DNA of 50,232 nucleotides from Bacteroidota bacterium (GTDB taxonomy: Bacteria > Bacteroidota > Bacteroidia > CAILMK01 > JACPUW01), in NCBI GenBank assembly GCA_016192035.1, contig JACPUW010000025.1, positions 1-50,232 on the forward strand. Reading direction: 5' to 3'. A model generated the notes under the pieces. That model did no database searches. It saw nothing but the letters and a program-made list of their open reading frames with translations, and was not told the DNA's origin. This document shows positions 1,924 through 47,106 of this stretch, one piece after another. Both the position numbers and the translations under genes were made by a program. The first letter of the stretch is position 1; every line of letters starts with the position of its first letter.

Positions 1924-3024
1924 TTAGTCCTTTGACACGGCTCCAAGGTCCACCGAGAAGTATTGCACCGAATCGGCATGCCCTTTTAGCGCACGTTCCA
2001 CGGCACTTTTCTGGGTATTGGTTACGCACAATTGTTCAAACATAGTCATAGACAGCCCCAATACGCGCTCCACGCGCCCAGGGTCCAATCGGTCAAACAG
2101 GTCATCAAGCAGAAGCATGGACTTTTTACCGGTAATCACCTCCACCACAGCGGCTTGTGACAGTTTGAGCGCTATCACATGGCTTTTTTGTTGGCCCTGT
2201 GATCCGTACTTGGTGAGCGGCATGCCACCAATCATCAGTTGCAGCTTGTCTTTGTGCAGGCCGTACTCCGTGCGCCCCATGACCAGTTCCCTGTCGCGAA
2301 ACCGGTCGAAAAGTTCGGTCAAGGGCGCTTGGTGCAATTGGGAATCATAGCTGATTTCCAGTGTCTCACGGTCGCCGGTGATGTTGTTTGCCAAGCGGTT
2401 GAAATGTGGCAAGAGCTGGTCAACAAATGCCTTGCGTGCAGGAAAAAGGTACCGGCTGGTACTTGACAAGTGCTGTTCATAGGCCATTAATAAATCCAGG
2501 TCTATCTTCTTGTCGTCCTTAGCCGCCTTGAGAAGGCTATTGCGCTGGCCCAAGGCCTGGTTGTAGCGCGCCAGGTTTGACAGATAAATGGGGTCGTACA
2601 GGGAAATGGTGCTGTCCATAAACCTGCGGCGTTCTTCATGGCCCTCGGTGGCCAGGGCCATGTCTTGCGGCGAAACCATGACCACCGGAAACCGTCCGTA
2701 GTGGCCAGATAGGCGCTCATACTCGGCCCCGTTCACTTTCAGCACTTTCTTTCGTCCGTTGGCTACGGCACATCGCACTTGGTACTGCTCACCTCCCCAA
2801 ATAAAGGTGCCCTGTATGCCAAAAAACTGTTCCCCAAAGGTGATATGCTGGTTGTCGCCAGGCGAAAAAGCTCCCTTGCCGGTAGATAGGTAGTGAATGG
2901 CATCGAGCAAATTGGTCTTTCCCACCCCATTGAGGCCATAAAAACAAATCACCTTGCGGTCAAAATCCAACTCTGCCGCCCGGTGGTTCTTAAACTGTGT
3001 AATGGAAAGTTGCCGTAGGTACAC
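1924..3024 (-). CDS. recF: DNA replication and repair protein RecF
   Basis: RecF is an ABC/SMC-type ATPase that helps load RecA at gapped DNA through RecFOR. The 366-residue protein shows Walker A GLNGVGKT at about residues 30-37, the signature segment YGSQGQQKSHVIALKLSQA and Walker B MLLLDDLFDRLD near the C-terminus. The RecF core begins YLRQLSITQFKNH, so I place the start at a GTG codon directly before it. The in-frame ATG 120 nt upstream would overlap the 3' end of the enoyl-CoA hydratase gene and add a non-homologous tail. The gene follows the hydratase by 29 nt and precedes the DUF3109 gene. Length and motifs are normal. Confidence 0.95.
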   Translation of the reverse strand: MYLRQLSITQFKNHRAAELDFDRKVICFYGLNGVGKTNLLDAIHYLSTGKGAFSPGDNQHITFGEQFFGIQGTFIWGGEQYQVRCAVANGRKKVLKVNGAEYERLSGHYGRFPVVMVSPQDMALATEGHEERRRFMDSTISLYDPIYLSNLARYNQALGQRNSLLKAAKDDKKIDLDLLMAYEQHLSSTSRYLFPARKAFVDQLLPHFNRLANNITGDRETLEISYDSQLHQAPLTELFDRFRDRELVMGRTEYGLHKDKLQLMIGGMPLTKYGSQGQQKSHVIALKLSQAAVVEVITGKKSMLLLDDLFDRLDPGRVERVLGLSMTMFEQLCVTNTQKSAVERALKGHADSVQYFSVDLGAVSKD

Positions 3025-3053
3025 CGGCCCAAATTTAGGCCCTGGCCACAGGG

Positions 3054-3830
3054 CTACCGCCCGCCAAACCGGGGCTTCCGCTTCTCGGTGAAGGCTTGGA
3101 CCCCCTCGGCGTAGTCTTGGGAATAACCCGCTATTTCTTGACAATAAGCCTCGTATTGCAACATACTCTCTAGGTTGCTTTCCATGGAGCGGTTGAGCAT
3201 GGATTTCATTAACCCTATAGCCTTGGTAGGGGCCAACCTATAATAGTCAACTACCATGGCCAATTCATTGTCAAGCTCTTCGGCTGCAACTACCCGGTTT
3301 ATCATTCCCCAGTCAAAGGCCTGCTGGGCACTTACCTTGCCGCCCATGGTGGCCAGTTCAAAAGCCCGGTTGCTGCCCACCAGCCTGGGCAAAAAGAAAG
3401 AAGAACCGCTATCGAGTACCAGACCCACGTTCACAAACACCTCTATTAATGTAGCTTCATGGCTGGCAACAACAAAATCACAGGCCAGGGCCAAGGAACA
3501 ACCAGCTCCGGCAGCCACTCCGTGCAGTCGGCATACTATGGGCTTGGCCAATCCGCGCATGGCCCTAATGATGGGATTGTACCGCTGGTAAAGAGAATCG
3601 CTCAGGGAACGCTTCGTCCCGGCTATGTCTTTGAGATCCTGACCAGAACAGAATGCCTTACCCTCTCCCCCCAAAACCACTACCCGGATGCTGCCGTCCT
3701 TGTGTACCTGCTTTAGGGCATCTTGGAGCTCATAGCTCATGTCGTTGTTAAAGGCGTTGAACCTATCAGGACGGTTAAGCCAAATTCGGGCTACCCCTTC
3801 ATGGCTTTCATAGCGCAGGCAATTGTACAT
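3054..3830 (-). CDS. Enoyl-CoA hydratase/isomerase family protein (PaaG-like)
   Basis: A 258-residue crotonase-superfamily protein acting on acyl-CoA thioesters. The oxyanion-hole segments are FCSGQDLKDIAG (about residues 60-71) and the helix HGVAAGAGCSLALACDFVVAS (about 104-124). The downstream segment VGLVLDSGSSFFLPRLVG has Asp in the position typical of PaaG-type isomerases (ring-opened phenylacetate pathway), rather than the Glu of classical hydratases. No other paa genes are in the window, so the substrate is open and a general beta-oxidation role is possible. The start at MYNCLRYESHEG matches the family N-terminus. It is the first gene of a minus-strand group with recF. Confidence 0.9.
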   Translation of the reverse strand: MYNCLRYESHEGVARIWLNRPDRFNAFNNDMSYELQDALKQVHKDGSIRVVVLGGEGKAFCSGQDLKDIAGTKRSLSDSLYQRYNPIIRAMRGLAKPIVCRLHGVAAGAGCSLALACDFVVASHEATLIEVFVNVGLVLDSGSSFFLPRLVGSNRAFELATMGGKVSAQQAFDWGMINRVVAAEELDNELAMVVDYYRLAPTKAIGLMKSMLNRSMESNLESMLQYEAYCQEIAGYSQDYAEGVQAFTEKRKPRFGGR

Positions 3831-8299: not shown

Positions 8300-9070
8300 A
8301 TGGACAATCGTGTCAATCGCATTTTGGTGGCCTTGGGCATTTCTATCGCCCTCCAACTCCTTATAGTGGCCGCATTTAGTTTTACCTCACCTGAAAAAGG
8401 GGCCATTATCCATCGCTTCGCTGTATTGCTCGGCGGCGACATAGTGGCAGGTGGCTACATCCAGTTCGCCACATTTATCGTGTTTTTCTGGGGCATTTTT
8501 GAAATCAAGTTCTTTAACAAATGGCTTGGCTATGAGCGCAAATACCTCAATACGGACATTCTGCCTAAAGAGGAGCATAGCGTGCTGGGCCCCAAAGAGG
8601 TAAACAGTATAAGGGTAAAGGTGCTAGAGTACCTCAACAACAAAAAAATGAGCGGCGTGGAAGCTGAACACTTCTTGCTTAACCTCATAAAGAAAGCGGC
8701 CACCAAATTCAGGGCAAACCACAGTGCCGATGGGGCATTTAGCATTGTGGAAGCCCAGAGTCGCATCAACAAGGAGAAATCCGATAGCAGCCAGTCTCAC
8801 CTTCGCTATATCCTGTGGGCCATTCCGTCCATTGGTTTTGTGGGCACGGTGCTCGGTATTTCACAGGCCCTTAGCTTGGCCAATACCAATGACATCAACC
8901 TCATCACCTCCACACTCGGCGTTGCCTTTGATACCACCCTACTGGCACTTGTGCTCAGTGTCTGGCTTATGTACAGTTTCCACATTCTCCAAGAAAAGAC
9001 CGAAAACCTACACCAGGACATAGAAGAGTTTGTGGTGGATAACCTCATTAACCGCATAGACGTAGGATAA
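8300..9070 (+). CDS. MotA/TolQ/ExbB proton channel family protein
   Basis: A 256-residue inner-membrane protein and first gene of an eight-gene operon. Four hydrophobic segments lie at about residues 8-28, 51-72, 168-190 and 205-226. The last two hold the family core: AIPSIGFVGTVLGISQAL with the Pro/Gly pattern of TolQ/ExbB helix 3, and LGVAFDTTLLALVLSVWLM for helix 4, where Asp211 and Thr212-213 fall at the ion-path position. A cytoplasmic domain of about 95 residues separates the two helix pairs, as in ExbB/MotA. Known relatives form pentamers around a dimer of MotB/ExbD-like proteins and convert ion flow into rotation. Its stop codon overlaps the start of the next gene by 1 nt, and that gene encodes a fitting partner. 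Confidence 0.85.
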   Translation: MDNRVNRILVALGISIALQLLIVAAFSFTSPEKGAIIHRFAVLLGGDIVAGGYIQFATFIVFFWGIFEIKFFNKWLGYERKYLNTDILPKEEHSVLGPKEVNSIRVKVLEYLNNKKMSGVEAEHFLLNLIKKAATKFRANHSADGAFSIVEAQSRINKEKSDSSQSHLRYILWAIPSIGFVGTVLGISQALSLANTNDINLITSTLGVAFDTTLLALVLSVWLMYSFHILQEKTENLHQDIEEFVVDNLINRIDVG

Positions 9071-10113
9071 TGGCGCGCAAGGAAATAAACATCTTTAGCG
9101 CATCTTTCCTCGACCTTCTTTCAGGTGCGCTGGGTGCCGTGATCATTCTCTACATCCTGGTGCCCAAGCTCACCATACCCATCACAGCGTTTGAAGAACA
9201 GAAGAAACTGAGCGAAGAAGTGGGCAAATTGGGGGTGGCAATTGATGACATAGCCAACCTCATACCGAAAGAACAACTGGACGCCATAAAGTCTCAGATG
9301 CAGGAGGTTATATCGGCCAAAGTAGCCTTAGAATCCAAGATTGCCAGCCTAGAGCAAGCCTTGGAAGAGTGCAGGAAAAGCAATGAGGAAAACCTTAAAA
9401 AGATTGTAGAACTGCAGGAAGAACTCAAGGAAACTAAAGATGCCCTGGCAGCAGCCATGGCCCAAATAGAAGATCTCACCCCGTATAAGGTATGGATGGA
9501 CAAGTGCGGGTTCAAACCCACCGATCCTTGCCCAGAAGTGGCCGCCCTCAATGTGGATGTAGGTTTTAAATTCAAAGGACGCAATTTGCTCTTTATCATA
9601 GATATATCTGGAAGCATGGACCTTGACGGACGCATGGGGCAAGTACAGGCCGGGCTCAAGATGCTCATCACCACCATGGGGCCTGACTTTAACTGCGATG
9701 TGATGTGGTTTGGTGAACCCGAAACCGGCAAGTATCTCGATTCCAAGTTTGGCCGCCTCATGGCCATGGACGACCGTAACAAATCACAAATCATTGAATA
9801 CGTAAATGATTTGGTCACCGGCGGGGGCACTCCTACCGGTGTGGCCCTCGAGCATGCACTGCAACATGGCGGGTACAGTGGCCTTACCGATATCATCCTC
9901 CTTTCCGATGGCATACCCAGTATTCCCGAGGGGGTTACCACCGCTTCCATTTTGAGTATGGTGCAATCGCTCAACAGCGGAATTGCTATTAGCGCCATAG
10001 GTGTGGGCAAGCCCATGACCAAACCCGACCCAAGCGTGCCCGAAGAGGTGGGCGCGCGCAAGTTTATGGAAGACCTGGCCAAGCAAAACAATGGATTTTT
10101 CTACGGATTCTAA
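9070..10113 (+). CDS. MotB/ExbD-like membrane-anchored VWA domain protein
   Basis: A 347-residue protein with one N-terminal membrane helix, a long coiled coil and a C-terminal von Willebrand A domain. The helix region ASFLDLLSGALGAVIILYIL (about residues 11-30) starts with Asp15, the position of the ion-binding Asp in MotB and ExbD. Residues 41-137 are heptad-rich and charged. The VWA domain (about 168-347) has a complete MIDAS: DISGS (Asp178, Ser180, Ser182), Thr254 in GGGTPTG and Asp280 in SDG. I infer a stator-like partner of the channel protein in which a metal-dependent ligand-binding VWA domain replaces the usual peptidoglycan-binding domain. With the short N-terminus inside, the coiled coil and VWA should be periplasmic. 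Two cysteines (about 146 and 154) precede the VWA. Confidence 0.85.
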   Translation: MARKEINIFSASFLDLLSGALGAVIILYILVPKLTIPITAFEEQKKLSEEVGKLGVAIDDIANLIPKEQLDAIKSQMQEVISAKVALESKIASLEQALEECRKSNEENLKKIVELQEELKETKDALAAAMAQIEDLTPYKVWMDKCGFKPTDPCPEVAALNVDVGFKFKGRNLLFIIDISGSMDLDGRMGQVQAGLKMLITTMGPDFNCDVMWFGEPETGKYLDSKFGRLMAMDDRNKSQIIEYVNDLVTGGGTPTGVALEHALQHGGYSGLTDIILLSDGIPSIPEGVTTASILSMVQSLNSGIAISAIGVGKPMTKPDPSVPEEVGARKFMEDLAKQNNGFFYGF

Positions 10114-10128
10114 CTAAATATCAAATAC

Positions 10129-11670
10129 ATGGCAAACAGAGCGACACAATCACTCACGGCAGGGATGAAAATTTTAGGGGGCGCCAACATCCCTACATAT
10201 ACCCTAGAATACCTCACCCCCACGGCCAAACACCGACAAGGCAGCTATGAAACCATAGTGGTGCCCTATGTGGAACTAGGAAGGGACAAACGCTGTGGCG
10301 TAGAGTTTGGCGACGACACCCCCACCGTGAGCCGAAGACACTGCGCCATAGAGCGAAAAGGAAATGAAACATCCATCATAAACCTTTCATCGTCCAACCC
10401 CACCCTAGTAAATGGCCGCCCAGTACAAGAGCGCTATTTCCTAAACAATGGCGACGAAATACAGCTTTCGGTGGAAGGGCCCAGGCTTAGGTTTAACACC
10501 ACCAAGACAGGAACGGCCAAAATGGGCTTTACCAATAAGATGAACCTGGTGATGATGCAGGCTATAAAGCCGTATAAAACAGCGGCCATTGCAGCTTTGG
10601 CAGTCATTATCTTACTGGCCGGCGGGGGTGCCTTTGCCATAGTCAAGCTCAACGAAGAAACCGTGCACCTGGCAAGCGATCTGGAAGGCCAAAAAGAACT
10701 TACCAAGGCACAAGCCGACTCGCTGGCCGCCGTGAAAAAACAAAACGAAGCCCTGGCCGCCGAACTGGTGAAGAACAAGGCCGACCTAGAGCGCACCCTG
10801 GCTTCTGAAAGGGCACGCATCATCAAGGAAAACGAAAAACTAACACGCTCACTATCTGAACTAAAGGCCAAAAATGACAGCTTGCTCAGCAGCAACAAAT
10901 CCTATGTGGAACTCATTGAACCGCTTAAGAAATATACCCTAGCCATATTCTATAACAAGATAGTGGTGGAGTATGGCGGCAGCATTATAGCTGAAGAGAC
11001 CTACGAGCCCGACTGTATGTGTACCGGTTTCTTGCTTGAAGACGGCACTTTTGTCACCGCCAGGCACTGCATTGATGCCATTCTCACCGACATAGACGCC
11101 GCCAATTTTTACGATGCCAGTGGTGGTTCTTCTACCTTGTACTATACCGCCCAGTCATATGATGGCAGCGTGAAGATTGATTTCACCAACAAGCAAATGA
11201 AAGCCGACTACTCACAGGACACCTACACCGACGTGACCTTCCAGGGCATGTCGGGCAAACTGAGGAGCCCCAATTACTTTGAGGGTGCCGACTGGGCTTA
11301 CCTAAAGACCAGCTATACCGAGGGGGTACCTTTTGACAAAGACCTGAGCCGAAACGTAAAGTCAGGAACGGAGCTCTTGGTGCTGGGCTATTCATATGGC
11401 ATGCAATACCGCGCATCAGGCACCCTGGAGCCCTACTTCTCCACCGCCAAAGTAACACTTACCGGCCTGCAAAACAACACCATAAACGTTACCGAGGCTG
11501 GCTGGGACGGTGGCAACTCCGGCGGGCCCATTTTCACTGAGGTTAATGGTAAGGCCGTATGCGTAGGTTTGGTTACCGGTACCTTTAGGAAGAGTGAATA
11601 CAGCTCTAGCGGCGAAGCGGTGGGGGTAAACGCCAGCATAAAGATTGTGACCCCTCTATGCAATTTCTAG
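10129..11670 (+). CDS. FHA - transmembrane - coiled coil - trypsin-like serine protease fusion
   Basis: A 513-residue signalling protease. The N-terminal FHA domain (about residues 40-125) keeps VELGRDKRCG, VSRRHCAIE and the NG of LVNGRPV, the phosphothreonine-binding set. A membrane helix at about 151-173 follows, then a heptad-rich coiled coil (about 175-262). The C-terminal chymotrypsin-fold domain (about 265-513) has a full triad: His313 in FVTARHCID, a good Asp candidate at 388 in GADWAYLK, and Ser464 in GGNSGGPIF. Placing FHA in the cytoplasm puts the protease in the periplasm, so phosphorylation inside could control proteolysis outside. That is inference. The gene starts 15 nt after the VWA gene and its 3' end overlaps the next gene by 13 nt. 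Confidence 0.9.
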   Translation: MANRATQSLTAGMKILGGANIPTYTLEYLTPTAKHRQGSYETIVVPYVELGRDKRCGVEFGDDTPTVSRRHCAIERKGNETSIINLSSSNPTLVNGRPVQERYFLNNGDEIQLSVEGPRLRFNTTKTGTAKMGFTNKMNLVMMQAIKPYKTAAIAALAVIILLAGGGAFAIVKLNEETVHLASDLEGQKELTKAQADSLAAVKKQNEALAAELVKNKADLERTLASERARIIKENEKLTRSLSELKAKNDSLLSSNKSYVELIEPLKKYTLAIFYNKIVVEYGGSIIAEETYEPDCMCTGFLLEDGTFVTARHCIDAILTDIDAANFYDASGGSSTLYYTAQSYDGSVKIDFTNKQMKADYSQDTYTDVTFQGMSGKLRSPNYFEGADWAYLKTSYTEGVPFDKDLSRNVKSGTELLVLGYSYGMQYRASGTLEPYFSTAKVTLTGLQNNTINVTEAGWDGGNSGGPIFTEVNGKAVCVGLVTGTFRKSEYSSSGEAVGVNASIKIVTPLCNF

Positions 11671-12437
11671 CCCAAATAGTTTCATTTTTCCTTGTGCTGG
11701 GCAGCCTTTGCCTGCCACTTTTGGGCAGTGCACAACTTCTTGGTGCAGGCGACAACTGCAACCCCCTGGTGCAATCGGTAGCCGATGTGGTGATGGTGCT
11801 GCGCCAGGAATTTGTGCTCACCGATAAGGATGACAATGAGTTTGGTAAGGATGGGGAGGCATATTTTGGTGCTGGATACGCCCCGGGCATAGTGGTGAAT
11901 GGTCAACTTTACCTAAGCAAATTGGCACGGAAACCATTCCTACATGATTCCAGCTACTTGAGCTACGGCCCTGGATATACCCCAAATCCTTCCAATCTTT
12001 ACTACAAAGGAATTAAAGAAAAGGCGTTCAACCAATTGACATCTGAATTGGCAGAAAACAAGACCTACTGTGAAGCCAGTGTGGCACCCATGGTAGGCAT
12101 TCCCAGCGCCAACAATACCCTGGCCGATACCATGGATTGCCTGGTAATCACCTACATGCCTGATTCCGACCCGGTTTCTGATGCTACCACCTATTCCCTT
12201 AGTTATGTCTATAACAAAGTGGTTTGGAAGGCCGATAAAGGCCAGTTAACCAATGAAAAACTAGGGTCGCGCACCACTTTCGGCCTCCTTTTCTACCAAT
12301 CGGTAGGGCTTGGCGAGGCCCATTTGGAGTTTGGCGGATTCGTGGAAAAGCTGGGCAGCCGCTGGGTCTGCACTCCTATAACTAAACTCTCGGCCATAAC
12401 ACCGGTAGATAAGCCCAAAAACAAAAAGAAACCCTAA
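11658..12437 (+). CDS. Exported protein of unknown function in the motor/kinase operon
   Basis: A 259-residue protein with a clear signal peptide (hydrophobic stretch through residue ~24, then AQLLGAG). The mature part has five cysteines, including NCNPL, TYCEA, MDCLV and WVCTP, which suggests disulfides and a periplasmic location, and it ends in a lysine-rich tail. I recognise no domain. It overlaps the protease gene by 13 nt, so it is translationally coupled to it. A substrate, inhibitor or ligand of the protease or VWA protein is a reasonable guess, but nothing in the sequence proves it. Confidence 0.8.
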   Translation: MQFLAQIVSFFLVLGSLCLPLLGSAQLLGAGDNCNPLVQSVADVVMVLRQEFVLTDKDDNEFGKDGEAYFGAGYAPGIVVNGQLYLSKLARKPFLHDSSYLSYGPGYTPNPSNLYYKGIKEKAFNQLTSELAENKTYCEASVAPMVGIPSANNTLADTMDCLVITYMPDSDPVSDATTYSLSYVYNKVVWKADKGQLTNEKLGSRTTFGLLFYQSVGLGEAHLEFGGFVEKLGSRWVCTPITKLSAITPVDKPKNKKKP

Positions 12438-12449
12438 AAACCATAGCCC

Positions 12450-14054
12450 ATGATACAGAAAATAGAATTGTTTGGCAGCACCGACGTGGGCATGGTGCGC
12501 GACCACAACGAAGACAACTTTGTGATATGCAAAGACCTGAAAACCAAAGAATGGTCTTTTAAGCGGGATGAAATCCTGCCCTTGTCGGCACACGGGGCCC
12601 TGCTGGTGGTGGCCGATGGCATGGGCGGCACCAATGCCGGGGAGGTAGCATCTCACCTGGCCCAGGAATCCATCAAGTCCCAGTTTTCTGATCTGTCCTC
12701 TGTTCCCCCTGAGGCCGCCGAGCGCGAAAAACTGCTCAAGGGATTTATTGTTAAGGCACATGAAGCCATAGTGGCACACCAACACAAAAACCTGGATACC
12801 GCCGGCATGGGTACCACCCTGGTATTGGCTTGGGTCATTGACCAAGAAGTGCATGTGGCTTGGTCAGGTGATAGCCGCACCTATATCTATCAGGGGCAGG
12901 AAAACTTAGTCCCCTTTACCGACGACCACTCCCTGGTGTGGCAACTCGTCCAGGCCGGGCAAATGACCGCCGAAGAAGCCCGGAACCATCCAGAAAGCAA
13001 CATCATAACCCAAAGCTTGGGCGATGAGCGCTCCACACCAAAACCATCGTCAAAAAGCCAAAAACTCTATGAGGGCGACCGCGTACTGGTGTGCTCCGAT
13101 GGCCTGAGCGGCATGATGAGCGATGCACACATGATGCAGATACTTAAGGCGGAAGGTAGCCTTGCCGACCTCTGCCGCGACCTAATAGCCGCAGCCAACC
13201 AAGGCGGTGGTACCGACAATATAACCGCACTGCTCCTAGAGGTGAAGGAAGGCGACAAACGCCCTGCACATATAAGCCAACCAAGTAACCCTGGTGCGGG
13301 CACCGGCCCATCCAAGCCTACCGCCACACAGGTCTTGCGAAAGAAAAACTCGTCTAAAAATGTGGTCATTGCCTTGCTCTTGTTGATAATGGCAGGATTG
13401 ACCGGGTACTTTTTATTGCTGAAACCCAAAGCACCTACCATAGAGCGCATTACTGGCAAAACCATTGATTTCAAGCCAGGCAAAGACAAAAGCATCAATG
13501 TTTTGGAGCTATTGTTTGGCAATTTGGACCACACGGTCGAAAATGCCACGGTCACCTATCAGGGCAAGGAAATCCACAATGGCAAATCGCCCAGTTTCAC
13601 TTTTACGCCTGATACACCCGGGAATACCACCCTGCACATAACCCTGCGACTAGCCAATAGCGACACCTACTACGAAGCTGAGGTAAAGGTGGCCCCCAAA
13701 GAAAAACAGGCTCCACTTGATGGCAATATTCCTGGCGGGGCACTACAGGAAGGCGGGCCAAACCCAGGGGAAACCCCGGCATCAGGCCCTGAAACACCTA
13801 CCACCGGGGGCAATGACCCAAGCGGCACAGCCACCCCACCTGCCAACGGCGCCACCGAACCGCTCATAGAAGAGCCCCTGCCACCGCCCACCGATACCAA
13901 AAAAGAAGGCGAAGGCGAGGATGAAAAAGGTACAACGCCTGGGGTACTAACCCCCCTGCCCAAGGAGAAGGCCACCCCTAAAGAAGAGGAGAAAAAAGAG
14001 GAGGAAGTAAAAGAAGGTGAAGAAGGAGGCGGACTTATATTGTACAACCATTAA
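12450..14054 (+). CDS. PP2C-family protein phosphatase with membrane anchor and Pro-rich tail
   Basis: A 534-residue protein. Residues 1-265 are a PP2C (PPM) Ser/Thr phosphatase with the canonical motifs: VRDHNEDNF, VVADGMGG (metal ligand Asp56), GMGTTL, WSGDSRTY, VLVCSDGLSGMM (Asp217) and GGTDNITALLL (Asp256). All metal ligands are present, so it should be active. A linker with SKPTATQVLRKK leads to a membrane helix at about 304-324. The exported part starts with an Ig-like beta domain (about 330-430) and ends in a long Pro/Glu/Lys-rich low-complexity tail. It presumably reverses phosphorylation by the two kinases encoded downstream. It starts 12 nt after the previous gene. Confidence 0.93.
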   Translation: MIQKIELFGSTDVGMVRDHNEDNFVICKDLKTKEWSFKRDEILPLSAHGALLVVADGMGGTNAGEVASHLAQESIKSQFSDLSSVPPEAAEREKLLKGFIVKAHEAIVAHQHKNLDTAGMGTTLVLAWVIDQEVHVAWSGDSRTYIYQGQENLVPFTDDHSLVWQLVQAGQMTAEEARNHPESNIITQSLGDERSTPKPSSKSQKLYEGDRVLVCSDGLSGMMSDAHMMQILKAEGSLADLCRDLIAAANQGGGTDNITALLLEVKEGDKRPAHISQPSNPGAGTGPSKPTATQVLRKKNSSKNVVIALLLLIMAGLTGYFLLLKPKAPTIERITGKTIDFKPGKDKSINVLELLFGNLDHTVENATVTYQGKEIHNGKSPSFTFTPDTPGNTTLHITLRLANSDTYYEAEVKVAPKEKQAPLDGNIPGGALQEGGPNPGETPASGPETPTTGGNDPSGTATPPANGATEPLIEEPLPPPTDTKKEGEGEDEKGTTPGVLTPLPKEKATPKEEEKKEEEVKEGEEGGGLILYNH

Positions 14055-14069
14055 TAAAAGAGCAGCCAA

Positions 14070-14765
14070 ATGAGATGTTATGAATGCGGTTATCAAAACG
14101 ATGAAACACAGAAGATTTGCGTAAAATGCGGGACCAAGCTAGAGGCCGGTACCAGCCCTACGCCGCCGCCACCGGCAGCCAAGCCGGCAGCTACCGACCC
14201 CACTCCTGCCCACGGTGGGGCCAAAACCATGCGCGGACAAGCAGCACAAATGCCATCTTGGGATGCGCCCAGCCACAACCCGCCTGCCACTCCGCAGCCG
14301 CCCAAACCCGCGCATGCCACCACCTCCATCAAATGCCCCAATTGTCAGTTCTATCCATTGCAGGCCATGCCCAGCACGGGTTCACCCTGCCCCAATTGCG
14401 GCTTTTCAGGCGCACAGGGACAGCCACAAGGGGGGGCTTCAAAAACCATGAAAGTAGGTGAGATTCAATTAGACCCAAGTACTTCCGATGGGCCATCATT
14501 TGCGCTGGTTGATGAGTCAACAGGAAGGGAAATGATTTTTTCTGGGCTTCAGGTATCGCTCAACCGTGAAAACCTTGACCCCGGCAACAACTCCATCTCA
14601 TCGGGCACTCATGCCCTTTTTAGTTTTGACCGAGGCCAGCTTATGGTAGAGGACAAAAGCAGCAACGGGGCCACCTTTGTGCGCGCCAATGGGCAAATGC
14701 CCGTAGCCAACGGCAATAAGGTTGTGCTGGGAAACAAGGTCTTCACCGTGAAAATCAAGTCGTAA
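14070..14765 (+). CDS. Zinc-ribbon and FHA domain adaptor protein
   Basis: A 231-residue soluble protein. Residues 1-22 form a zinc ribbon (Cys3, Cys6, Cys17, Cys20), followed by a Pro/Ala-rich linker and a second CPNC...CPNC ribbon (about 89-110). The C-terminal FHA domain (about 143-230) has the shortened set SLNRENL, ISSGTH and SSNGATFV. Two T-M motifs in the linkers, AKTMRG and SKTMKVG, look like phosphothreonine sites that an FHA domain could bind. With no membrane segment it is probably the cytoplasmic adaptor of the kinase-phosphatase set, similar in idea to GarA or T6SS Fha proteins. The gaps to its neighbours are 15 and 13 nt. Confidence 0.88.
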   Translation: MRCYECGYQNDETQKICVKCGTKLEAGTSPTPPPPAAKPAATDPTPAHGGAKTMRGQAAQMPSWDAPSHNPPATPQPPKPAHATTSIKCPNCQFYPLQAMPSTGSPCPNCGFSGAQGQPQGGASKTMKVGEIQLDPSTSDGPSFALVDESTGREMIFSGLQVSLNRENLDPGNNSISSGTHALFSFDRGQLMVEDKSSNGATFVRANGQMPVANGNKVVLGNKVFTVKIKS

Positions 14766-14778
14766 TTACCCAAGATAC

Positions 14779-16080
14779 ATGTCTTCCCCCACGGTAGTCA
14801 ACATACATTCCGGAAGCCACATCACCTCAAAGAACACCACCTACCAAGTGGAAAAGGAATTGGGTGAAGGCGGTTTTGGCAATGTGTATTTGGTGAACAC
14901 ACAGGGCACTAAGTACGCCCTGAAACTCACCAAAATGTGGACTTTCATGCCCAATGAACGCCTAGAGTACGCAAAGCGGTTCAAACAGGAATATGAGTAT
15001 GGCTCCAAACTCAATAGCCCCTTTTTGGTGCGCAGCTATGACTATGACCTACTGGATGGCAACCCATACATAGTCATGGACTTGTGTAGCGGAGGAAGCC
15101 TTAGGGACTGGGTGGGGGAACAAAAACCCTATGAAGAGCTCATGAGGGTAGCCCACGGGGTAGTTACCGGATTGGCACACCTGCACACCGAAGGCATAGT
15201 GCACCGCGACATAAAACCTGAAAACGTGCTGTTTGACAGCGCCACAACCCCCAAGTTGGCCGATTTCGGCATATCTGCATCCATACGCAAGCGGCACACC
15301 ATGGCCAATTTTATGGGCCATGCCAAGGAAGTCTTTGCCACCGGCACCTACTCCCCACCTGAGCAAATAGACCCCAAAAAAGCCATGAAGGTGATGGGGC
15401 CCACCAATGACGTGTATGCCTTTGGTGCCATGATGTATGAAATCTTGACCTTGGGCGAACTGCCTTTTGGCTCGTTTGAAGATTTCATGAACGACATGGC
15501 AGCCTATGAAAAGAAAAAGAAGGAGGAAAACTGGGACAGGGCCACCCTGCGCAAACATGCCAACGCGCAATGGGAGAAGGTGATAGAAAAGTGTATCAGG
15601 GCAGAACCCGAAGACCGGTACCAGAGCATGGACGACATACTGACCGACCTGGGATATACCCCCCAGCGGGCGGGCCAGTTTCAGGTTACCGCCCAGTCCA
15701 AGTGGAGCCTAAGGGTGCAAAACGGTGAAGAAATTGGCCGCACCTATTTCCTCACCAACCTGGCAAGGTTTAAAAACAAAAAACACCTTACCATAGGCTG
15801 GTTTAATGAAGATGACCCTTTTACAAACGACGTGGGGATAACAGAAGAATTTACCCAATATATATCCAACTATCACGCCACCCTAAGCTTTGATGAACAG
15901 AGCTTTAGATGGATGATACGCGATGGGCAGCAGCGCGAAAAAGACGGCGTGTATGGCTGGTATCCATCCACCAACGGGGTATTGGTGAATGGCAAAAAAG
16001 TAAGCCCACAGGGCATGCCGCTCGATGCAAATGACATAGTCTCCATAGGTGACACTACCCTTAAAGTAATTATAGAATAA
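14779..16080 (+). CDS. Serine/threonine protein kinase with C-terminal FHA domain
   Basis: A 433-residue soluble Hanks-type kinase. The kinase domain (about residues 22-292) has the glycine loop LGEGGFGNVYLV, the lysine of YALKL (Lys49), catalytic HRDIKPEN (Asp144) and DFG (Asp162), followed by ATGTYSPPEQ in place of the usual GT-x-x-Y-x-x-PE. All key residues are intact, so it should be active. The FHA domain (about 310-432) carries HLTIGW, the S-x-x-H motif ISNYHATLS and the NG motifs in STNGVLVNG, with an insert between them. The order kinase then FHA suggests self-recruitment to its own phosphorylated partners. It is followed after 22 nt by a second kinase gene. Confidence 0.93.
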   Translation: MSSPTVVNIHSGSHITSKNTTYQVEKELGEGGFGNVYLVNTQGTKYALKLTKMWTFMPNERLEYAKRFKQEYEYGSKLNSPFLVRSYDYDLLDGNPYIVMDLCSGGSLRDWVGEQKPYEELMRVAHGVVTGLAHLHTEGIVHRDIKPENVLFDSATTPKLADFGISASIRKRHTMANFMGHAKEVFATGTYSPPEQIDPKKAMKVMGPTNDVYAFGAMMYEILTLGELPFGSFEDFMNDMAAYEKKKKEENWDRATLRKHANAQWEKVIEKCIRAEPEDRYQSMDDILTDLGYTPQRAGQFQVTAQSKWSLRVQNGEEIGRTYFLTNLARFKNKKHLTIGWFNEDDPFTNDVGITEEFTQYISNYHATLSFDEQSFRWMIRDGQQREKDGVYGWYPSTNGVLVNGKKVSPQGMPLDANDIVSIGDTTLKVIIE

Positions 16081-16102
16081 CCAAACAAATACCACATATA
16101 AC

Positions 16103-18778
16103 ATGGCATATCAAGAAAACGAAGTATTTGCGGGCCGATACAAGCTGCTAAAAAAACTGGGCGTAGGCGGATTTTCAGAGGTTTGGCTGGCCGACGACTC
16201 TTTTACCGAAGACAACCAAGTGGCCATAAAAATCTATGCCCCCAACGGTGGCCTTGACAACCAAGGCCTTAAAGTGTTTAGCAAGGAATACGCGCTGCTG
16301 CAGGACATAAACAACCAGTACCTGCTCAAGGCCATGCACTTTGATGTGTACAACGATATGCCTTATTTGGTGCTCCCCTATTGCCCCAATGGCTCACTAC
16401 TCAGCCAGTTGCATGAAAAAGGTGCATTTACCGAAGAAGAATTGGCCAAGGTGATCTATGAGGTGTGCACTGGTTTGGCCTATTTGCATGACAACGGCAT
16501 CATTCACCAAGATATAAAACCCGCCAATATCCTTATCAACCGCAGGAACGAATGTGTAATTAGTGATTTTGGCATAAGCAACAATGTGCGCCGTACCCTG
16601 CGCAAAAGCATGGGGGTCACTTCAAGCAGCATGTCGCCCGAATATGCCCCACCAGAACGCTTTTCATCCAACCCCAAAACCCTGCCCCAGGGCGATGTAT
16701 TTTCTTTTGGGGTGTTGCTCTATGAGTTAGCTACAGGCGATGTGCCCTGGATGGGCATGGGCGGCATGAGCCTTTCCAGGGGTGCCGAAATCCCCACCAT
16801 GCCCGATGGGTTTTCCAATAACTTTAAAAAATGGACGGTGGCTTGCCTCTCCGTCAATCCGCTGGACCGGCCCAACGCCGATGAATTTGCCCGCGCTGCG
16901 CACACATTTCTCACCGAGGGCTACTGGCCTCCTCGGGCGGTGAAGGCCACTACGCCCCCCAACACAGACGAACAAACATCCAAGTCGCAGGGACGCAAGA
17001 CGGTAGCAAAGGTTGACATAGACGAAATGGCGGCCAAGATTGATGCCAATCTGGCCAGCTCCGCAAAGGCCGAGGCGCCCAAAGCGGGCAAGTCAAATGC
17101 CACCATGCGCGACGGGGAAGCACGCAGCCAGGCACCCAAGAAACATAAGAAAACCCCATTGGTGGCCGTGATAGTAGGTGTGGTGGTTGTGGCTGCCGCA
17201 GCCGCCGGTTTTATGTTTTACTCTAAGGCCCAGAAAGAAAAACAATACCAAGAAGCCATTGCCAATGCTGATAAGCTACTGGCCGACAGTAATTTGGTAG
17301 ATGCCCATGCAGCCTATGGCCAAGCCATGGAATTGATGCCCACCGATACACTGGCCGGCAAGGGCCAGCGCACCACCATGAAACTCATGAAAGCGCTAGT
17401 TAAAAAATCCATGAAGCGTGCGCAGGCCCAGTTTGACAAAGCGGAGTATGACCCCGCACTGGCTACTTTGGGCTCCTTGAGTGCCTTTGAACCCCAGTTT
17501 TCAGAAATTGCTGAATTAAAGGGCAAATGTCAAACAAAAAAGGATGAACTTATTGAAAAAGAGTTTACTGGATACCTTGCCAAGGGCGATGAATTCTTGG
17601 GAAAACTTACCTACGCCAAGGCAGCTGAATACTATGGCAAAGCCGACAGCCTAAAACCAGGCGATACACGGGTGCAGGACAAGCTCAACTCCATAGGCAC
17701 CAAGCTCAAAGGCTTATTTGCCGAAGAAGTGGCCAAGGGCGACGCATTTATGGCCAGCAAGAACCACTCATCGGCGGCGGGGGCCTACGCCAGGGCGGTA
17801 CTTTATGACAAAAACAATGCAGATGGCAAGGCCAAATTAGCCAAAGCACAGGCGGCGATAGAAACCGATAAAAAGCTGCTTATGGCCGCCAATGACAACG
17901 ATCTGAACGATGTGAAAAACCTCTTGGCCGCAGGGGCCAACCCCAATTACCTGTCGGCCAACCAATGCCCCATGGGCTGGGCGGTGTATAGGGGCAACCT
18001 TGACGCAGTGAAGGCCTTAAAAGATGCCGGCGCCGACTGCAACCCCAAGATTAGCTACTACTACAACGGCAGTACCCATTCTTCGCTCATTTCACTGGCC
18101 GCTGCGGTGAACGATGCCGACGTGTTTAAGTACCTGCATTCCACCTGCAAGGCCAATGTGGCTTCGGTGGCGTCCATGGCACAGGATGGCGGCATAAAAG
18201 ACTACCTGCGCGGCCTGGGATTTGGCGGCGTGGAGTTTAAGGAATACTTTACCAACTCCACATCCAGCAAGTTCCCGGCACTGATAGACGAAGACCGCGA
18301 GTGGTCATTTAGGGATGGCAAGTACTACCTGCGATGCATTTCTGAAGACTATGCCGGGTGGAAAGGAGCAGAGTTTGACATAGACATTTACAAGGATTTT
18401 GAAGTTACCCTTGAAGTACACCACTTGAGCGGCAATACTTCAAACGGGGGTATTGGTATGCTCTATGCCAGCGATGAAGACTATGATTATGTCAACGTAT
18501 TTGCGGTGTCGCCAAACGGAAAGTATCACACGGGCTACTACCTAGACGGCTGGCAGGATGTGGTTTATACCGAGTCATCGGCGGTAAACAAAGGAGAAGC
18601 CACCAACAAACTAAAGATAGTGAAGAAAGGGACTACGGTGTATTTCTATATCAATGACAAGTACATAACCTCCGACAACGACGTGCGCATGGCAGGAAAC
18701 CTGTTCGGGGTAATCTATGGATCGCCCGATGGTTATACCACTGTTTGGTACGACAACCTAATTATCAGGAACTTGTAG
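16103..18778 (+). CDS. Transmembrane Ser/Thr kinase with helical-repeat, ankyrin-like and lectin-like domains
   Basis: An 891-residue last gene of the operon. The kinase domain (about residues 13-270) has LGVGGFSEVWLA, Lys43 in AIKIY, and DFG at 155-157, but the catalytic loop reads HQDIKPANI, with Gln instead of Arg before Asp137. This makes it a non-RD kinase with the other catalytic residues intact. A cytoplasmic linker holds SNATMRDG, then comes a membrane helix at about 352-373. The exported portion has TPR-like helical repeats (about 380-590), one or two ankyrin-like repeats (about 592-650, DVKNLLAAGANPN and AVKALKDAGADCNP), and a beta-rich C-terminal domain (about 710-891) resembling DUF1080/concanavalin-like sandwiches (GGIGMLYAS, WYDNLIIRN). 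It looks like a sensor of an envelope ligand. Confidence 0.9.
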   Translation: MAYQENEVFAGRYKLLKKLGVGGFSEVWLADDSFTEDNQVAIKIYAPNGGLDNQGLKVFSKEYALLQDINNQYLLKAMHFDVYNDMPYLVLPYCPNGSLLSQLHEKGAFTEEELAKVIYEVCTGLAYLHDNGIIHQDIKPANILINRRNECVISDFGISNNVRRTLRKSMGVTSSSMSPEYAPPERFSSNPKTLPQGDVFSFGVLLYELATGDVPWMGMGGMSLSRGAEIPTMPDGFSNNFKKWTVACLSVNPLDRPNADEFARAAHTFLTEGYWPPRAVKATTPPNTDEQTSKSQGRKTVAKVDIDEMAAKIDANLASSAKAEAPKAGKSNATMRDGEARSQAPKKHKKTPLVAVIVGVVVVAAAAAGFMFYSKAQKEKQYQEAIANADKLLADSNLVDAHAAYGQAMELMPTDTLAGKGQRTTMKLMKALVKKSMKRAQAQFDKAEYDPALATLGSLSAFEPQFSEIAELKGKCQTKKDELIEKEFTGYLAKGDEFLGKLTYAKAAEYYGKADSLKPGDTRVQDKLNSIGTKLKGLFAEEVAKGDAFMASKNHSSAAGAYARAVLYDKNNADGKAKLAKAQAAIETDKKLLMAANDNDLNDVKNLLAAGANPNYLSANQCPMGWAVYRGNLDAVKALKDAGADCNPKISYYYNGSTHSSLISLAAAVNDADVFKYLHSTCKANVASVASMAQDGGIKDYLRGLGFGGVEFKEYFTNSTSSKFPALIDEDREWSFRDGKYYLRCISEDYAGWKGAEFDIDIYKDFEVTLEVHHLSGNTSNGGIGMLYASDEDYDYVNVFAVSPNGKYHTGYYLDGWQDVVYTESSAVNKGEATNKLKIVKKGTTVYFYINDKYITSDNDVRMAGNLFGVIYGSPDGYTTVWYDNLIIRNL

Positions 18779-42569: not shown

Positions 42570-45188
42570 CTATCCTGGTTCATTTACAAAACTTGCTTCA
42601 TAATCTTGTCGGCTTAAAACTGTGTCAAATAGACCAACATCTTCGCCTTCGTGTCTGTTGATTCCGATATACTCCAAACTTGCATCTTCATAGCGTTTGA
42701 ATTTATAAACGGCATCATTCATTAAAGCAGAGTTGAACACCCCAAGGCTTACCAATAATTCAAAGTCTTTAACTGATAGACCTGTTACCTTTTTGAAAAG
42801 CCCTGGCTCTAGTTGGGTGATTACATCTTTCAGACTTCTTTCTCGATAGTCTGTCAGGTACATAAACACAGGAATACGGGTAGCAAACTTGATTAGCTTT
42901 TCTTGGATTTGTTTTCTCAGGCTCTTGTATTCCTTTTCTTCGTCTGAAAGTTCTTTTTTCTCTTTCTTGGTAAGTTCTCTGTCGTTGGCTTCTTTCTTTG
43001 CTTTTTTAACGGATTCTGATTTATTGATGATTGTTTCAATGTCCTGGTTCAAATTCCTAAAGCCTTCAATGCTCATTAGAGCTTTCATGGCTTCTTCGTT
43101 TGCCATTAGTCGGGCAAGTGTGTTGTTGTCCACATTTACGAGCAAAGCACTTTCCCAACGTCTTGCCAAAAGCGTTGCGGTTGTGCCACTCATTGCCATA
43201 TCCAAAATGCCCGCTGCGTCCACTTGCTTCATTGAACTGCCGTCATAAGCTAAGACTGGCAGGAAGTTGATAAACTCGGCAACTTTTGCTTCGGGGTTCG
43301 ATTCGTTTACATTCAGTCGGCAACTGTAATCGGCTATTTGCCTTAATGCACGGTCGGGGGCAAAGTCAAAAACGTAACATTCTTCTTTTAGAATTTCTTC
43401 TTTGTTTGGCGATTTGCTGTCGGGGTTTTTGATAACCCAAGGCGTTTGCACACGGAAAGCTGCTTGAAAGTAGGTTTCAGGACTGGAAGAATTGCGCAGC
43501 ATAAAAATTCCTGTCCACGGTTTTACCGAAACGCCTGTGGTGAGTTTCCCGCACGAAAGCGTAATGGTTTTTGACTCCAATGGATTGTCTGTCATTGCAT
43601 CTAAAACCGGGGGCAATGCTTCAATTCCAATTCCTGCTTGTGTGCCTGCGGCTACCACTACTTTGTAATCGTGGTAAAATGTGTTTTGTCGTCTTTCAAG
43701 CAACAATGCCATTGCGTTACAAGCTGCAACGGTGGGCAAAAACCAAAAGGTGTGATTCAGCACTTTGAGCAATGGAGCGTGTGAAAAAGGTAAAGGCGGC
43801 TTTTTAGCTCCCATTTTCAAAAGGTCAACGGTGGTTTCGCTAAACGAGCCCCGAATTAAATCCAACCATTTTTGTACTTCATCTTCGTATTTGAAACGGG
43901 CTTTTCGCCCTTCACCTTCGGCAGAAAAGAATATGTTTAAATCAAAGCCGTCAAACTCACCTAGCATTGCTATTTGGCGAATGGAATCAGGCAATTGATA
44001 TGTGAGCATTACCATTCTTGGCAGGGCTGCATAAGGATTTGCCCCTAAGGAATCGTCCCAATCTTCTTTTTCCCTTTGCTCGTCAGAATACGTCCAATTG
44101 AAGATTTGCTCTTCGATAAATTCGCCTGAACTGATAGCCCGAAACGGAGTGCCTGACAAGTACAAATAGTGATTGGTGCTGATAGGGATAATCTTCTCTA
44201 AGTGTTCGGCTTTGTCTTCTTCGGCAATCCCTTCTTTTTCAATCCTTTTGTATTCTTCAATTTCTTTTTCGGCTTCTAAATCTTTGCCGAATAGGTCTTT
44301 GGCGTTTTCTCGCCAAGCCCCAAAATGGTATTCGTCAAAAATGATACAGTCCCAAACAGTGGCGTGTACCCATTCGTTTTTGGTTTTGATACCGCCTGTG
44401 TTGGTGTTCTTGCCTAAAAAATCCTGAAACGAGCCGAAGCAAATTAAGGTTTGATTTTCACGCAAAGTTCGCAAAGGATTTTCTTCACGCAAAGCACGCA
44501 AAGACTCAGCGTTCTCTGCGTCTTCCTGGCGATTTTTGCGTGATATATCTATTTCATTTTTTGAGTAAAATTGCCAACCTCTAAAGTCAACGTGAGAAAG
44601 TAAATCTTCTTTCCAAGCATCTTCTACGGCTGGTTTGAAGGTGAGCACCAACACTTTTTTCCACCCCATTTTTTTGGCCAATTGATAACTGGCAAAGGTC
44701 TTTCCGAAACGCATTTTGGCGTTCCAAAGGAAGTGGGGCGTTCTGTCCTTGTTTTCTTTCTTGAAACTTTTGAAATAGGCGATTGATTTATTTACGGCTT
44801 CTTCCTGTTCGGGTCGCATATTGAATGTTAGCACTCTGTTTTCTTCTGTTTTTTCGCCTGTTTTGATTTGGTGAATGGCTCTGCGCAAGTCGTTTAAGGT
44901 GCATTTAAACCATTCCCCGCTTTCGTTTACTACTTTCCATTCTCTCAACAATCGGTGTACATCGTGGTCGGTAAAAGAACTGCCGTCACGTTTCATAGCC
45001 GATTCTTCAAATACAATTTTGTATGGAATGGCTGCCGTGCCTAACTGTTCTTTGATACGTGTTTGTGCGTTGCGGTCGGTATAGCCGATTTTGAGCAAAC
45101 CCTTGTGCGTAGCCACACCTACCAACTCATAAGCATAAATGGTTGGGTTGGTGGACGGTCGGGGCGGGAAAAATTCTTTTTTACTCAT
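42570..45188 (-). CDS. Restriction enzyme subunit: GIY-YIG/T5orf172-like nuclease fused to a DEAD/DEAH helicase
   Basis: An 872-residue protein, last gene of the restriction-modification operon. The N-terminus (about residues 12-110) is a GIY-YIG-type domain: TIYAYELV, LLKIGYTDRNAQTRIKEQ, and then DHDVH (74-78) where the family usually has a Glu before the His-containing helix. The SF2 helicase part has FLWNAKMRFGKT (Walker A, Lys163), IIFDEYHFG (Walker B, Asp285-Glu286), YLSGTPFRAIS and, late, QAAFRVQTPW (motif VI-like). It should translocate on DNA and cut unmodified sites. Residues 216-245 derive from an in-frame repeat insertion. The gene starts in a 4-nt overlap with the KilA-N gene. Its first ~100 nt are duplicated at two places upstream. 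Confidence 0.88.
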   Translation of the reverse strand: MSKKEFFPPRPSTNPTIYAYELVGVATHKGLLKIGYTDRNAQTRIKEQLGTAAIPYKIVFEESAMKRDGSSFTDHDVHRLLREWKVVNESGEWFKCTLNDLRRAIHQIKTGEKTEENRVLTFNMRPEQEEAVNKSIAYFKSFKKENKDRTPHFLWNAKMRFGKTFASYQLAKKMGWKKVLVLTFKPAVEDAWKEDLLSHVDFRGWQFYSKNEIDISRKNRQEDAENAESLRALREENPLRTLRENQTLICFGSFQDFLGKNTNTGGIKTKNEWVHATVWDCIIFDEYHFGAWRENAKDLFGKDLEAEKEIEEYKRIEKEGIAEEDKAEHLEKIIPISTNHYLYLSGTPFRAISSGEFIEEQIFNWTYSDEQREKEDWDDSLGANPYAALPRMVMLTYQLPDSIRQIAMLGEFDGFDLNIFFSAEGEGRKARFKYEDEVQKWLDLIRGSFSETTVDLLKMGAKKPPLPFSHAPLLKVLNHTFWFLPTVAACNAMALLLERRQNTFYHDYKVVVAAGTQAGIGIEALPPVLDAMTDNPLESKTITLSCGKLTTGVSVKPWTGIFMLRNSSSPETYFQAAFRVQTPWVIKNPDSKSPNKEEILKEECYVFDFAPDRALRQIADYSCRLNVNESNPEAKVAEFINFLPVLAYDGSSMKQVDAAGILDMAMSGTTATLLARRWESALLVNVDNNTLARLMANEEAMKALMSIEGFRNLNQDIETIINKSESVKKAKKEANDRELTKKEKKELSDEEKEYKSLRKQIQEKLIKFATRIPVFMYLTDYRERSLKDVITQLEPGLFKKVTGLSVKDFELLVSLGVFNSALMNDAVYKFKRYEDASLEYIGINRHEGEDVGLFDTVLSRQDYEASFVNEPG
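44456..44543. repeat. Palindromic CGCAAAG-type repeat inserted in frame in the helicase gene
   Basis: The 88-bp block starts TTTTCACGCAAAG and ends TTTTTGCGTGA, with inner CGCAAAG units, and is read through in frame as residues 216-245 (low-complexity RKNRQEDAENAESLRALREE and beyond). The same family, with the same ends, lies between genes at 48627-48736. The insertion falls between Walker A and Walker B, in a variable loop region. Confidence 0.8.
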
Positions 45189-45991
45189 TTCAATAGTTTT
45201 CTGTTTTCCACTTCCTGTAAAATTTGCATTTGCTGAATGGCAATTTTGTTCAACCTAACAAGACGGTCGGGTTGTGGCATTTTCTCAATGATAAAAACCG
45301 CATTCAGGTTTTCCATATTTGCAAGGCAAATCAGTTCATTGATAGATGCATAATCTCGAATATTTCCTTTCAAATCGGGATTGGCTTCCCGCCATTGTTT
45401 GGCTGTGATTCCAAACATAGCCACATTCAACACATCGGCTTCATCGGCATAGATGATGGCAGTTTGAGCTTGAGTAAGTTCTTTGGGGATAAGATTTTGC
45501 TTAATGGCATCGGTATGTATGCGAAAGTTTATTTTAGTGAGTTCCCGTTTGGCTGACCAGCCTATTTGCTTTTGCTCTTCATCTTTAAGGCGCTGGAACT
45601 CTTTGATAAAGTAAAGTTCAAACTCTATAGAAATCCAAGCGGCAAATTTGAATGCAATGTCTTTATGTGCAAAAGTGCCACCGTAACGCCCTGATTTTGA
45701 TATAATTCCTTTTGCATCGGTAGCATCAATCCATTTCTGGGGAGAAAGTGTAAAAGCATTCAATCCAGCTTCGGTTCTAAACCCCTCGAATTCGAGGGGT
45801 TTAAAATGCGGATTGTATAATATTTCCCAAAGACCAAGATATTCAATCGTGTTGCGATTTCGCATCCAATTGGCAATCACAGCACCCGGGTCACCACTTC
45901 TAAATTTGGCAATATCTGTTAGCGATATAAAATCGTCCTCACTGATTTTTAAGATGGTAACATCCTTTTGTAATACATTAATTTTTGCCAT
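45185..45991 (-). CDS. KilA-N domain protein in the restriction-modification operon
   Basis: A 268-residue protein with an N-terminal KilA-N DNA-binding domain (about residues 15-135): FISLTDIAKFRSGDPGAVIA, NTIEYLGLWEILYNPHFKP, SPQKWIDATDAKGIISKSGR and GTFAHKDIAFKFAAWISIEF. The C-terminal ~120 residues are helical. Family members act as phage or island regulators, and they often sit within restriction-modification operons. It lies between the degraded copy of the helicase 5' end and the true helicase gene, and its stop overlaps the helicase start by 4 nt. The role in the system is unknown. Confidence 0.92.
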   Translation of the reverse strand: MAKINVLQKDVTILKISEDDFISLTDIAKFRSGDPGAVIANWMRNRNTIEYLGLWEILYNPHFKPLEFEGFRTEAGLNAFTLSPQKWIDATDAKGIISKSGRYGGTFAHKDIAFKFAAWISIEFELYFIKEFQRLKDEEQKQIGWSAKRELTKINFRIHTDAIKQNLIPKELTQAQTAIIYADEADVLNVAMFGITAKQWREANPDLKGNIRDYASINELICLANMENLNAVFIIEKMPQPDRLVRLNKIAIQQMQILQEVENRKLLK

Positions 45992-46004
45992 AAATGTTCA
46001 TTCA

Positions 46005-46145
46005 TTAACGATTAATTGTAGTGAATTTCCAAGTCTTAAAATGGTCAAATTCTAAACCCTTGTGCGAGGCCACAGCTACCAACATATAAGCATAAATGGT
46101 TGGTTTGGTGGACGGTAGTGGTAGGAGAAATTCTTTTTTACTCAT
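46005..46145 (-). pseudogene. Truncated duplicate of the helicase gene 5' end (degraded copy)
   Basis: The minus strand reads MSKKEFLLPLPSTKPTIYAY, which is clearly the N-terminus of the helicase (MSKKEFFPPRPSTNPTIYAY). Similarity ends after codon 30 (SHKG), and the frame stops after 46 codons. Its ATG overlaps the end of the BRO-type gene by 8 nt (GATGAGTAA). It looks like the more diverged remnant of a segmental duplication. Confidence 0.9.
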
Positions 46146-46983: not shown

Positions 46984-47105
46984 AATGCTTTTGATTGTTT
47001 TACGATTTTGAGCAAACCTTTGTGCGTTGCCACATTTACCAACTCATAAGCATAAATGGTGGGATTGGTGGACGGTCGAGGTGGAAAAAATTCTTTTTTG
47101 CCCAT
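46980..47105 (-). pseudogene. Truncated duplicate of the helicase gene 5' end (well-preserved copy)
   Basis: An open frame of 41 codons starts MGKKEFFPPRPSTNPTIYAY and continues to GLLKI, matching helicase codons 1-34 with only two amino-acid differences. By eye there are about 11 base differences in 102, mostly silent. It then diverges and stops. It starts 1 nt after the methyltransferase stop codon, exactly where the helicase would be expected to start, and its stop overlaps the BRO gene start by 4 nt. It could be translated as a short peptide. Confidence 0.92.
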
Positions 47106-47106
47106 A

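Follow-up and report, generated by a model that had tools for sequence, protein, structure and literature searches.

The stretch of Bacteroidota DNA analysed here (positions 1 to 50,232 of contig JACPUW010000025.1, assembly GCA_016192035.1; the whole 50,232 nucleotides are called the window) contains at positions 8300-18778 an operon of eight genes, which joins two well-studied machines in one conserved genetic unit, namely ion-driven 5:2 motors and eukaryotic-type circuits of kinases, phosphatases, and FHA proteins. The operon is real, conserved, and un-named as far as searched, and its plausible mechanism, a motor switched by phosphorylation, is mostly inferred. All eight open reading frames (ORFs) lie on the forward strand, and the junctions from gene 1 to gene 8 measure -1, +15, -13, +12, +15, +13, and +22 nt, in agreement with a preliminary description of this DNA, which had taken the genes as one unit with overlaps or gaps of at most 22 nt and whose coordinates and strand were confirmed. 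The order of products proposed there is likewise supported by Pfam, the FHA domain of gene 6 being the weakest assignment; Pfam and NCBIfam together back every assignment save that of gene 4, which has no family. The motifs of the kinases, the PP2C phosphatase, the protease, and the metal ion-dependent adhesion site (MIDAS) of the VWA domain are all intact in the window proteins. Scans for promoters and terminators gave signals not clearly above those of shuffled sequences, and the GC content of the operon, overall and at third codon positions (GC3), matches that of the neighbouring genes.

Table 1. Genes of the operon and the transpore helix (TPH) of gene 2 (TM, transmembrane segment)
Feature	Position	Strand	Product or layout	Support
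Gene 1	8300..9070	+	MotA/TolQ/ExbB-type channel, 256 aa	Pfam MotA_ExbB 1.7e-11, above cut-off
Gene 2	9070..10113	+	presumed partner/rotor subunit, 347 aa	Pfam VWA 1.2e-5, TPH alignment A7, co-occurrence
Gene 2, TPH	9106..9162	+	transpore helix	alignment A7
Gene 3	10129..11670	+	FHA-TM-coil-serine protease	Pfam FHA 1.8e-15, Trypsin 6.6e-8
Gene 4	11658..12437	+	exported protein, signal peptide, conserved Cys34/161/238	alignment A6 (Cys residues)
Gene 5	12450..14054	+	cytoplasmic PP2C, TM 305-323, extracytoplasmic domain, Pro/Glu-rich tail	Pfam PP2C_2 4.7e-15
Gene 6	14070..14765	+	two zinc ribbons (four CxxC), C-terminal domain probably FHA-like	Pfam zinc ribbon 1.2e-4, below cut-off
Gene 7	14779..16080	+	soluble Ser/Thr kinase (HRDIKPEN, DFG), C-terminal FHA	Pfam Pkinase 4.9e-44, FHA 1.5e-8
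Gene 8	16103..18778	+	Ser/Thr kinase (HQDIKPAN, DFG), TM 353-371, sensor part	Pfam Pkinase 1.1e-45, Ank_2 2.3e-6

The first two genes show the features of the motor superfamily. Hydropathy predicts four TMs in the channel protein (residues 8-26, 48-66, 170-188, and 206-224), and Thr183 and Thr213, corresponding to the pore-lining Thr residues on TM3 and TM4 of MotA_ExbB domains, are invariant in 10 homologues (alignment A4); its profile also yields weak matches to MotA, TolQ, and PomA chains in the PDB. The presumed partner consists of the TPH (residues 13-31), a coiled coil, and a periplasmic VWA domain (residues 172-338) with the MIDAS motif DxSGS. It thus has the single TM of such partners, together with the Asp that is essential in MotA/TolQ/ExbB motors: Asp15 (codon 9112-9114) is shared without exception by 11 Bacteroidota and Rhizobium homologues. 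As judged from these alignments, Asp15 of the TPH and Thr183/Thr213 of the channel are the conserved proton-path residues.

The remaining genes supply a protease and the signalling parts. In the gene 3 product, a cytoplasmic FHA domain (residues 49-113) is followed by the TM (154-172), the coiled coil, and a periplasmic trypsin-like protease domain (about 295-492), whose catalytic residues His313, Asp388, and Ser464 are invariant in the alignment. Gene 4 belongs to no known family according to Pfam, NCBIfam, and PADLOC profile searches, is confined to the VWA-type operons of the window's genus (it is absent from the loci L012, L023, and L028 discussed below), and gave an AlphaFold2 (AF2) model too poor for a fold search, with a predicted local distance difference test (pLDDT) score of 39. 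The phosphatase of gene 5 matches the NCBIfam model Stp1 with 6.6e-66, slightly below the cut-off. The C-terminal domain of gene 6 is probably a degenerate FHA-like domain: the window protein has no Pfam FHA match there and a homologue has one at 0.0038, under the cut-off, while five homologues retain the FHA-signature residues R166, S178, H181, and N199 without variation and hhalign relates the protein to clear FHA proteins with an E-value of 9.4e-5 and a probability of 59%. The outer part of the gene 8 kinase comprises TPR-like and ankyrin repeats and a C-terminal domain resembling 3-keto-disaccharide hydrolases (PF06439, 2e-4, below cut-off). Of the four products previously thought to span the membrane with signalling domains inside, those of genes 3, 5, and 8 indeed do so, and the gene 2 product has hardly any cytoplasmic portion. 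The same genome also encodes a third Ser/Thr kinase (L071:503-2590, contig G000:C12), 45% identical to gene 8 in its kinase domain; it lies by itself close to the start of its contig, next to a repetitive ORF, and may be an orphan partner.

A chance array of genes is ruled out, because the synteny recurs in independent genomes. Operons of the window's type, here called type A, were found with all eight genes in the same order in a congener (G001, loci L011/L026; 46-84% identity) and, lacking gene 4 but otherwise in this order, in three genomes from a different Bacteroidota class (G277 = HLUCCA01/L012, G319/L023, and G749/L028, the contig of the last stopping within the last kinase of the set). 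In a sample of 395 Bacteroidota genomes surveyed with profiles of the channel (A4), the 37-residue TPH (A7), and the FHA-protease, the last matched in three genomes, and the former two matched in an identical set of six (about 1.5%). Two identical six-genome sets would arise by chance with a probability of 1/C(395,6), or about 2e-13. Since A7 contains rows from these genomes, the result is no blind discovery but shows that, at the sensitivity of these profiles, channel and TPH are never found apart. The order is conserved across two classes and the co-occurrence of channel and partner is perfect in the sample, contrary to the lack of conserved synteny that would have refuted the preliminary description.

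Half of the six profile-matched genomes (G323, G445, and G269) harbor a diverged and rearranged version of the set, composed of a kinase (not seen on the short contig of G269), the channel, an FHA protein, a PP2C, a protein with signal peptide, trypsin-like domain, coil, TM, and FHA domain, and a TPH-VWA protein. The FHA/protease protein is reversed here, with the protease domain N-terminal and the FHA domain C-terminal, but keeps its membrane sidedness. Three such pseudo-protease-coil-TM-FHA proteins, the mirror image of gene 3, lie at L037:6633-8057, L038:5675-7171, and L039:3204-4670; by our reading of their sequences, the protease domain lacks the catalytic His and Ser. G778 and G779 carry the set at two separate loci, one with the channel and the zinc-ribbon/FHA gene, the other with TPH-VWA and PP2C-TM. 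These two genomes also have in common two tandem kinases (L072:6290-8853 and L073:6069-8642), possibly those that the split system lacks; in G779 they lie near a 1122-residue protein with the N-terminus GGLGSQ, which may be tubulin-like.

The spread beyond the Bacteroidota is known from plasmid records only. An analogous set on the Rhizobium leguminosarum megaplasmid pRlBT01d codes for a PP2C, a channel, a TPH protein, a VWA-FHA protein, and a kinase-PDZ-PAN protein, in addition to a divergent set of kinase-PDZ, FHA, and PP2C. Two cyanobacterial plasmids carry a MotA/ExbB gene followed by two small hypothetical genes (L030:9542-12121 and L031:9542-12142), which looks like an unannotated Zorya-like unit and lies close to a type III-B CRISPR system and a viperin gene in one copy and to an N-6 methylase and a helicase in the other. 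They were not accepted as members, the match being limited to the channel core and situated beside other defence genes.

Conservation is distributed very unevenly over the proteins. Compared with G277 and G319, genes 2 and 3 show 74-87% identity in their cytoplasmic and TM parts and 21-46% in their periplasmic parts; the corresponding values for genes 5 and 8 are 41-58% and 22-25% for the outside. Furthermore, relatives carry, in place of the gene 2 VWA head, an unrelated domain marked by the motif V-D-[LF]-x-V, and in gene 8 CarboxypepD_reg and other repeats replace the ankyrin and 3-keto-disaccharide-hydrolase-like domains. This pattern suggests a fixed machine with changing sensors. The alternative head was initially regarded as DUF2135-like, an assignment dropped for lack of a Pfam match; tblastn gave a match to VIT-domain proteins, which in the single protein inspected falls near the C-terminus.

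The divergence of the operon is independent of taxonomy, which implies horizontal transfer between lineages: RpoB of the window genome is 60% identical to that of G277 and G319, which share 78% with each other, whereas the kinase-FHA proteins are 62-65% identical in all of these pairs and 64% identical between G319 and G749, which belong to the same genus. The operon had previously been regarded as possibly long resident on account of its codon use. Its GC3 and the copy in the congener are compatible with residence within the genus, but the divergence pattern points to movement between lineages.

On balance, we lean toward reading the operon as a trans-envelope motor driven by the proton-motive force and gated by Ser/Thr phosphorylation. 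The grounds for this are the anatomy of the proteins, their conserved catalytic and proton residues, the synteny, the co-occurrence, and the conserved inside and variable outside, which also uphold the earlier proposal of an energised device in the envelope, equipped with a circuit of Ser/Thr phosphorylation. From the conserved proton residues, together with the precedents of TolQ/TPH-vWA pairs (PMC12204202) and of the Fha proteins of type VI secretion systems (T6SS; PMC3953482), we infer a 5:2 stoichiometry with proton flow through a phosphorylation-gated motor. A MotA/TolQ-like pentamer of gene 1 would encircle a gene 2 dimer, whose TPH supplies the proton-carrying Asp while the coil and the VWA head work in the periplasm. 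Acting in opposite directions, the two kinases and the PP2C would set the phosphorylation state of the motor or of its FHA partners; in T6SS it is established that a kinase phosphorylates a membrane subunit and that an Fha protein reads the mark (PMC3953482). The FHA proteins of genes 3, 6, and 7 may bind phosphothreonines and couple the motor to the periplasm-facing protease of gene 3, which in type A would be a tethered active output, and the outward-facing domains of genes 2, 5, and 8 may act as variable sensors that survey envelope disturbance.

Several observations weigh against this motor. The AF2 monomer model of gene 1 is poor (pLDDT 47), and the co-occurrence profiles contain members from the matched genomes, including rows of A7. 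The degenerate protease of the diverged version cannot be a universal output. Finally, G672 and G718 carry the TPH, the channel, and the zinc-ribbon protein without adjacent kinases, which are present elsewhere in these genomes, so phosphorylation control may be dispensable. Judging from the different versions of the set, the channel, the TPH protein, and the zinc-ribbon/FHA protein appear to form the core, with kinases and PP2C as usual partners. Two genera of family f5 show a TPH protein, a channel, a double zinc-ribbon protein, and an outer-membrane-like protein without kinases (L024:8167-10171 and L025:10015-11979), possibly a minimal, kinase-free motor.

As to the purpose of the proposed motor, conflict or defence is slightly favoured over housekeeping, and surveillance or defence is a serious possibility, though short of likely. 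In a tentative reading as anti-phage or anti-conjugation defence, the motor and its variable head would perceive a breach as in Zorya, and the output would resemble that of KKP, with a lost phosphatase balance leading to toxic kinases or a triggered protease. The diverged copy in G323 has Ppl (6.5e-161) and a Schlafen/pAgo-like gene on one side and a Gabija pair (1.1e-187 and 7.3e-211) on the other, in an island that also holds PDC-S01 and PDC-S15, and the Rhizobium copy adjoins GajA/GajB (1.8e-238 and 8.3e-157). The rarity of the system (about 1.5% of genomes), its class-independent divergence, and its fast-changing outside domains fit as well, and KKP shows that sets of two kinases and a PP2C can defend (PMC11341870). 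The type-A operons themselves offer no such context: PADLOC gave no match for 36 proteins encoded up to about 10 kb from three of them or for the four closest neighbours tested in the window, and the defence-like genes of the window (PDC-S05 and type IIG restriction-modification) are 5-25 kb off with core genes between. Moreover, the operon contains no nuclease, NADase, or pore effector, and no type-A copy was found by a VWA tblastn search of plasmids or an FHA-protease search of phages. With comparable caution, the operon may be thought to represent a new class of horizontally spread, phospho-switched rotary proton motors with interchangeable heads, sensing envelope breaches in anti-phage or inter-bacterial conflict.

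A kinase-tuned housekeeping or stress device that exerts force across the envelope, similar to Tol-Pal or Ton and serving wall or outer-membrane maintenance, is somewhat doubtful. It accords with the position of type-A operons among core genes of like GC3, with the TPH-VWA gene of G778 and G779, which by our ORF reading lies upstream of rpsO-pnp and beside PP2C-TM, and with the force transduction inferred for TPH-vWA proteins (PMC12204202); yet the operon is absent from the other sampled genera of the family and order, and parts with housekeeping roles do not usually swap their heads. Very unlikely is an adhesion or gliding focal machine like Myxococcus Agl-Glt, with a motor, a GltG-like FHA-TM protein, and a VWA adhesin: AglRQS is coupled to the FHA-TM protein GltG there (PMC3169522) and the N-terminal half of gene 3 matches GltG weakly (7.3e-5, far below the cut-off), but gene 3 has no TonB domain, neither Glt-like outer-membrane proteins nor large TPR proteins are encoded in the operon, and Agl-Glt lacks kinases and PP2C.

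Elsewhere in the window, a RhuM/PDC-S05 candidate defence gene (240-1229; E 3e-148) and an AAA ATPase gene (1927-3144; mad3/PtuA-like), whose ORF overlaps that of an enoyl-CoA hydratase (3054-3830), precede the operon, and probable type IIG restriction-modification genes, coding for a helicase with T5orf172 and an Eco57I-type methylase, extend over several ORFs at 42570-48612.

The operon had been compared with Zorya, TerY-P, and T6SS control, with the remark that no named system was known to have all of its parts. No match to a named operon was found, and single parts are indeed alike, but the defining features of Zorya and T6SS that were tested are missing; open-access literature, which leaves out most subscription papers, yielded no description of the full gene set. 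With Zorya the operon shares a MotA/TolQ-type channel and partner in an envelope-sensing motor, including a weak ZorA2 profile match (2e-6). This match covers residues 32-126 of 461-505, however, and gene 1, with its 256 residues, lacks the long cytoplasmic ZorA tail; a VWA domain stands in place of the peptidoglycan-binding OmpA-like head of ZorB, which has no match, and PADLOC finds no ZorC, ZorD, or ZorE among the eight proteins. The kinase, PP2C, and FHA proteins recall the PpkA-PppA-Fha control of the inner-membrane machine in T6SS, but the sheath protein VipB/TssC (PF05943) is absent from nine system-bearing genomes, as judged by a model that may miss Bacteroidota T6SSiii. KKP (PMC11341870) likewise combines a PP2C, an FHA-kinase, and a second kinase in one operon; its order, with PP2C directly followed by the FHA-kinase and the cold-shock-domain kinase, is not found here, since gene 6 intervenes and the second kinase has no cold-shock domain, and the window set has no prophage signs around it and is linked to a motor and to anchors in the membrane. 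Agl-Glt shares the TolQR-type motor with an FHA-TM partner, whereas the operon, to which the search was confined, contains kinases and a PP2C and neither a TonB domain nor Glt outer-membrane or TPR components. By the tests run, the operon is thus not Zorya, T6SS control, KKP, or Agl-Glt, each failing in at least one defining feature.

TerY-P is counted among the kinase/PP2C/vWA triads. Such triads of conflict systems are mentioned in an eLife survey of 2020 (PMC7159879), on which, instead of on a test, the comparison with TerY-P rests; they resemble the operon in having a kinase (in some cases bearing a zinc ribbon or TM), a PP2C, and a vWA protein in neighbouring genes, but their vWA protein stands alone, and an ion channel or a periplasmic protease is not mentioned. 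A close likeness concerns the TolQ and TPH-vWA pairs of other phyla, which were predicted as motors in 2025, with AlphaFold 3 models and no known function (MBE; PMC12204202). In a second family described there, as in the window, a TolQ-like channel gene adjoins one for a VWA protein with a single-TM transpore helix and a conserved Asp, without TolR/ExbD. That family mostly has two heterologous vWA genes, occurs chiefly in Proteobacteria and Verrucomicrobia, and is described without a kinase/PP2C/FHA set, whereas the window genome, with one TPH match, has a single VWA gene in a phospho-signalling operon of Bacteroidota, and its head can be another domain. The channel and 37-residue TPH profiles offer a simple means of finding further members, and if the proposed mechanism is true, the operon would represent a rotary motor under the gating control of protein phosphorylation, and the recently predicted TPH-vWA motors would gain their first regulatory context.

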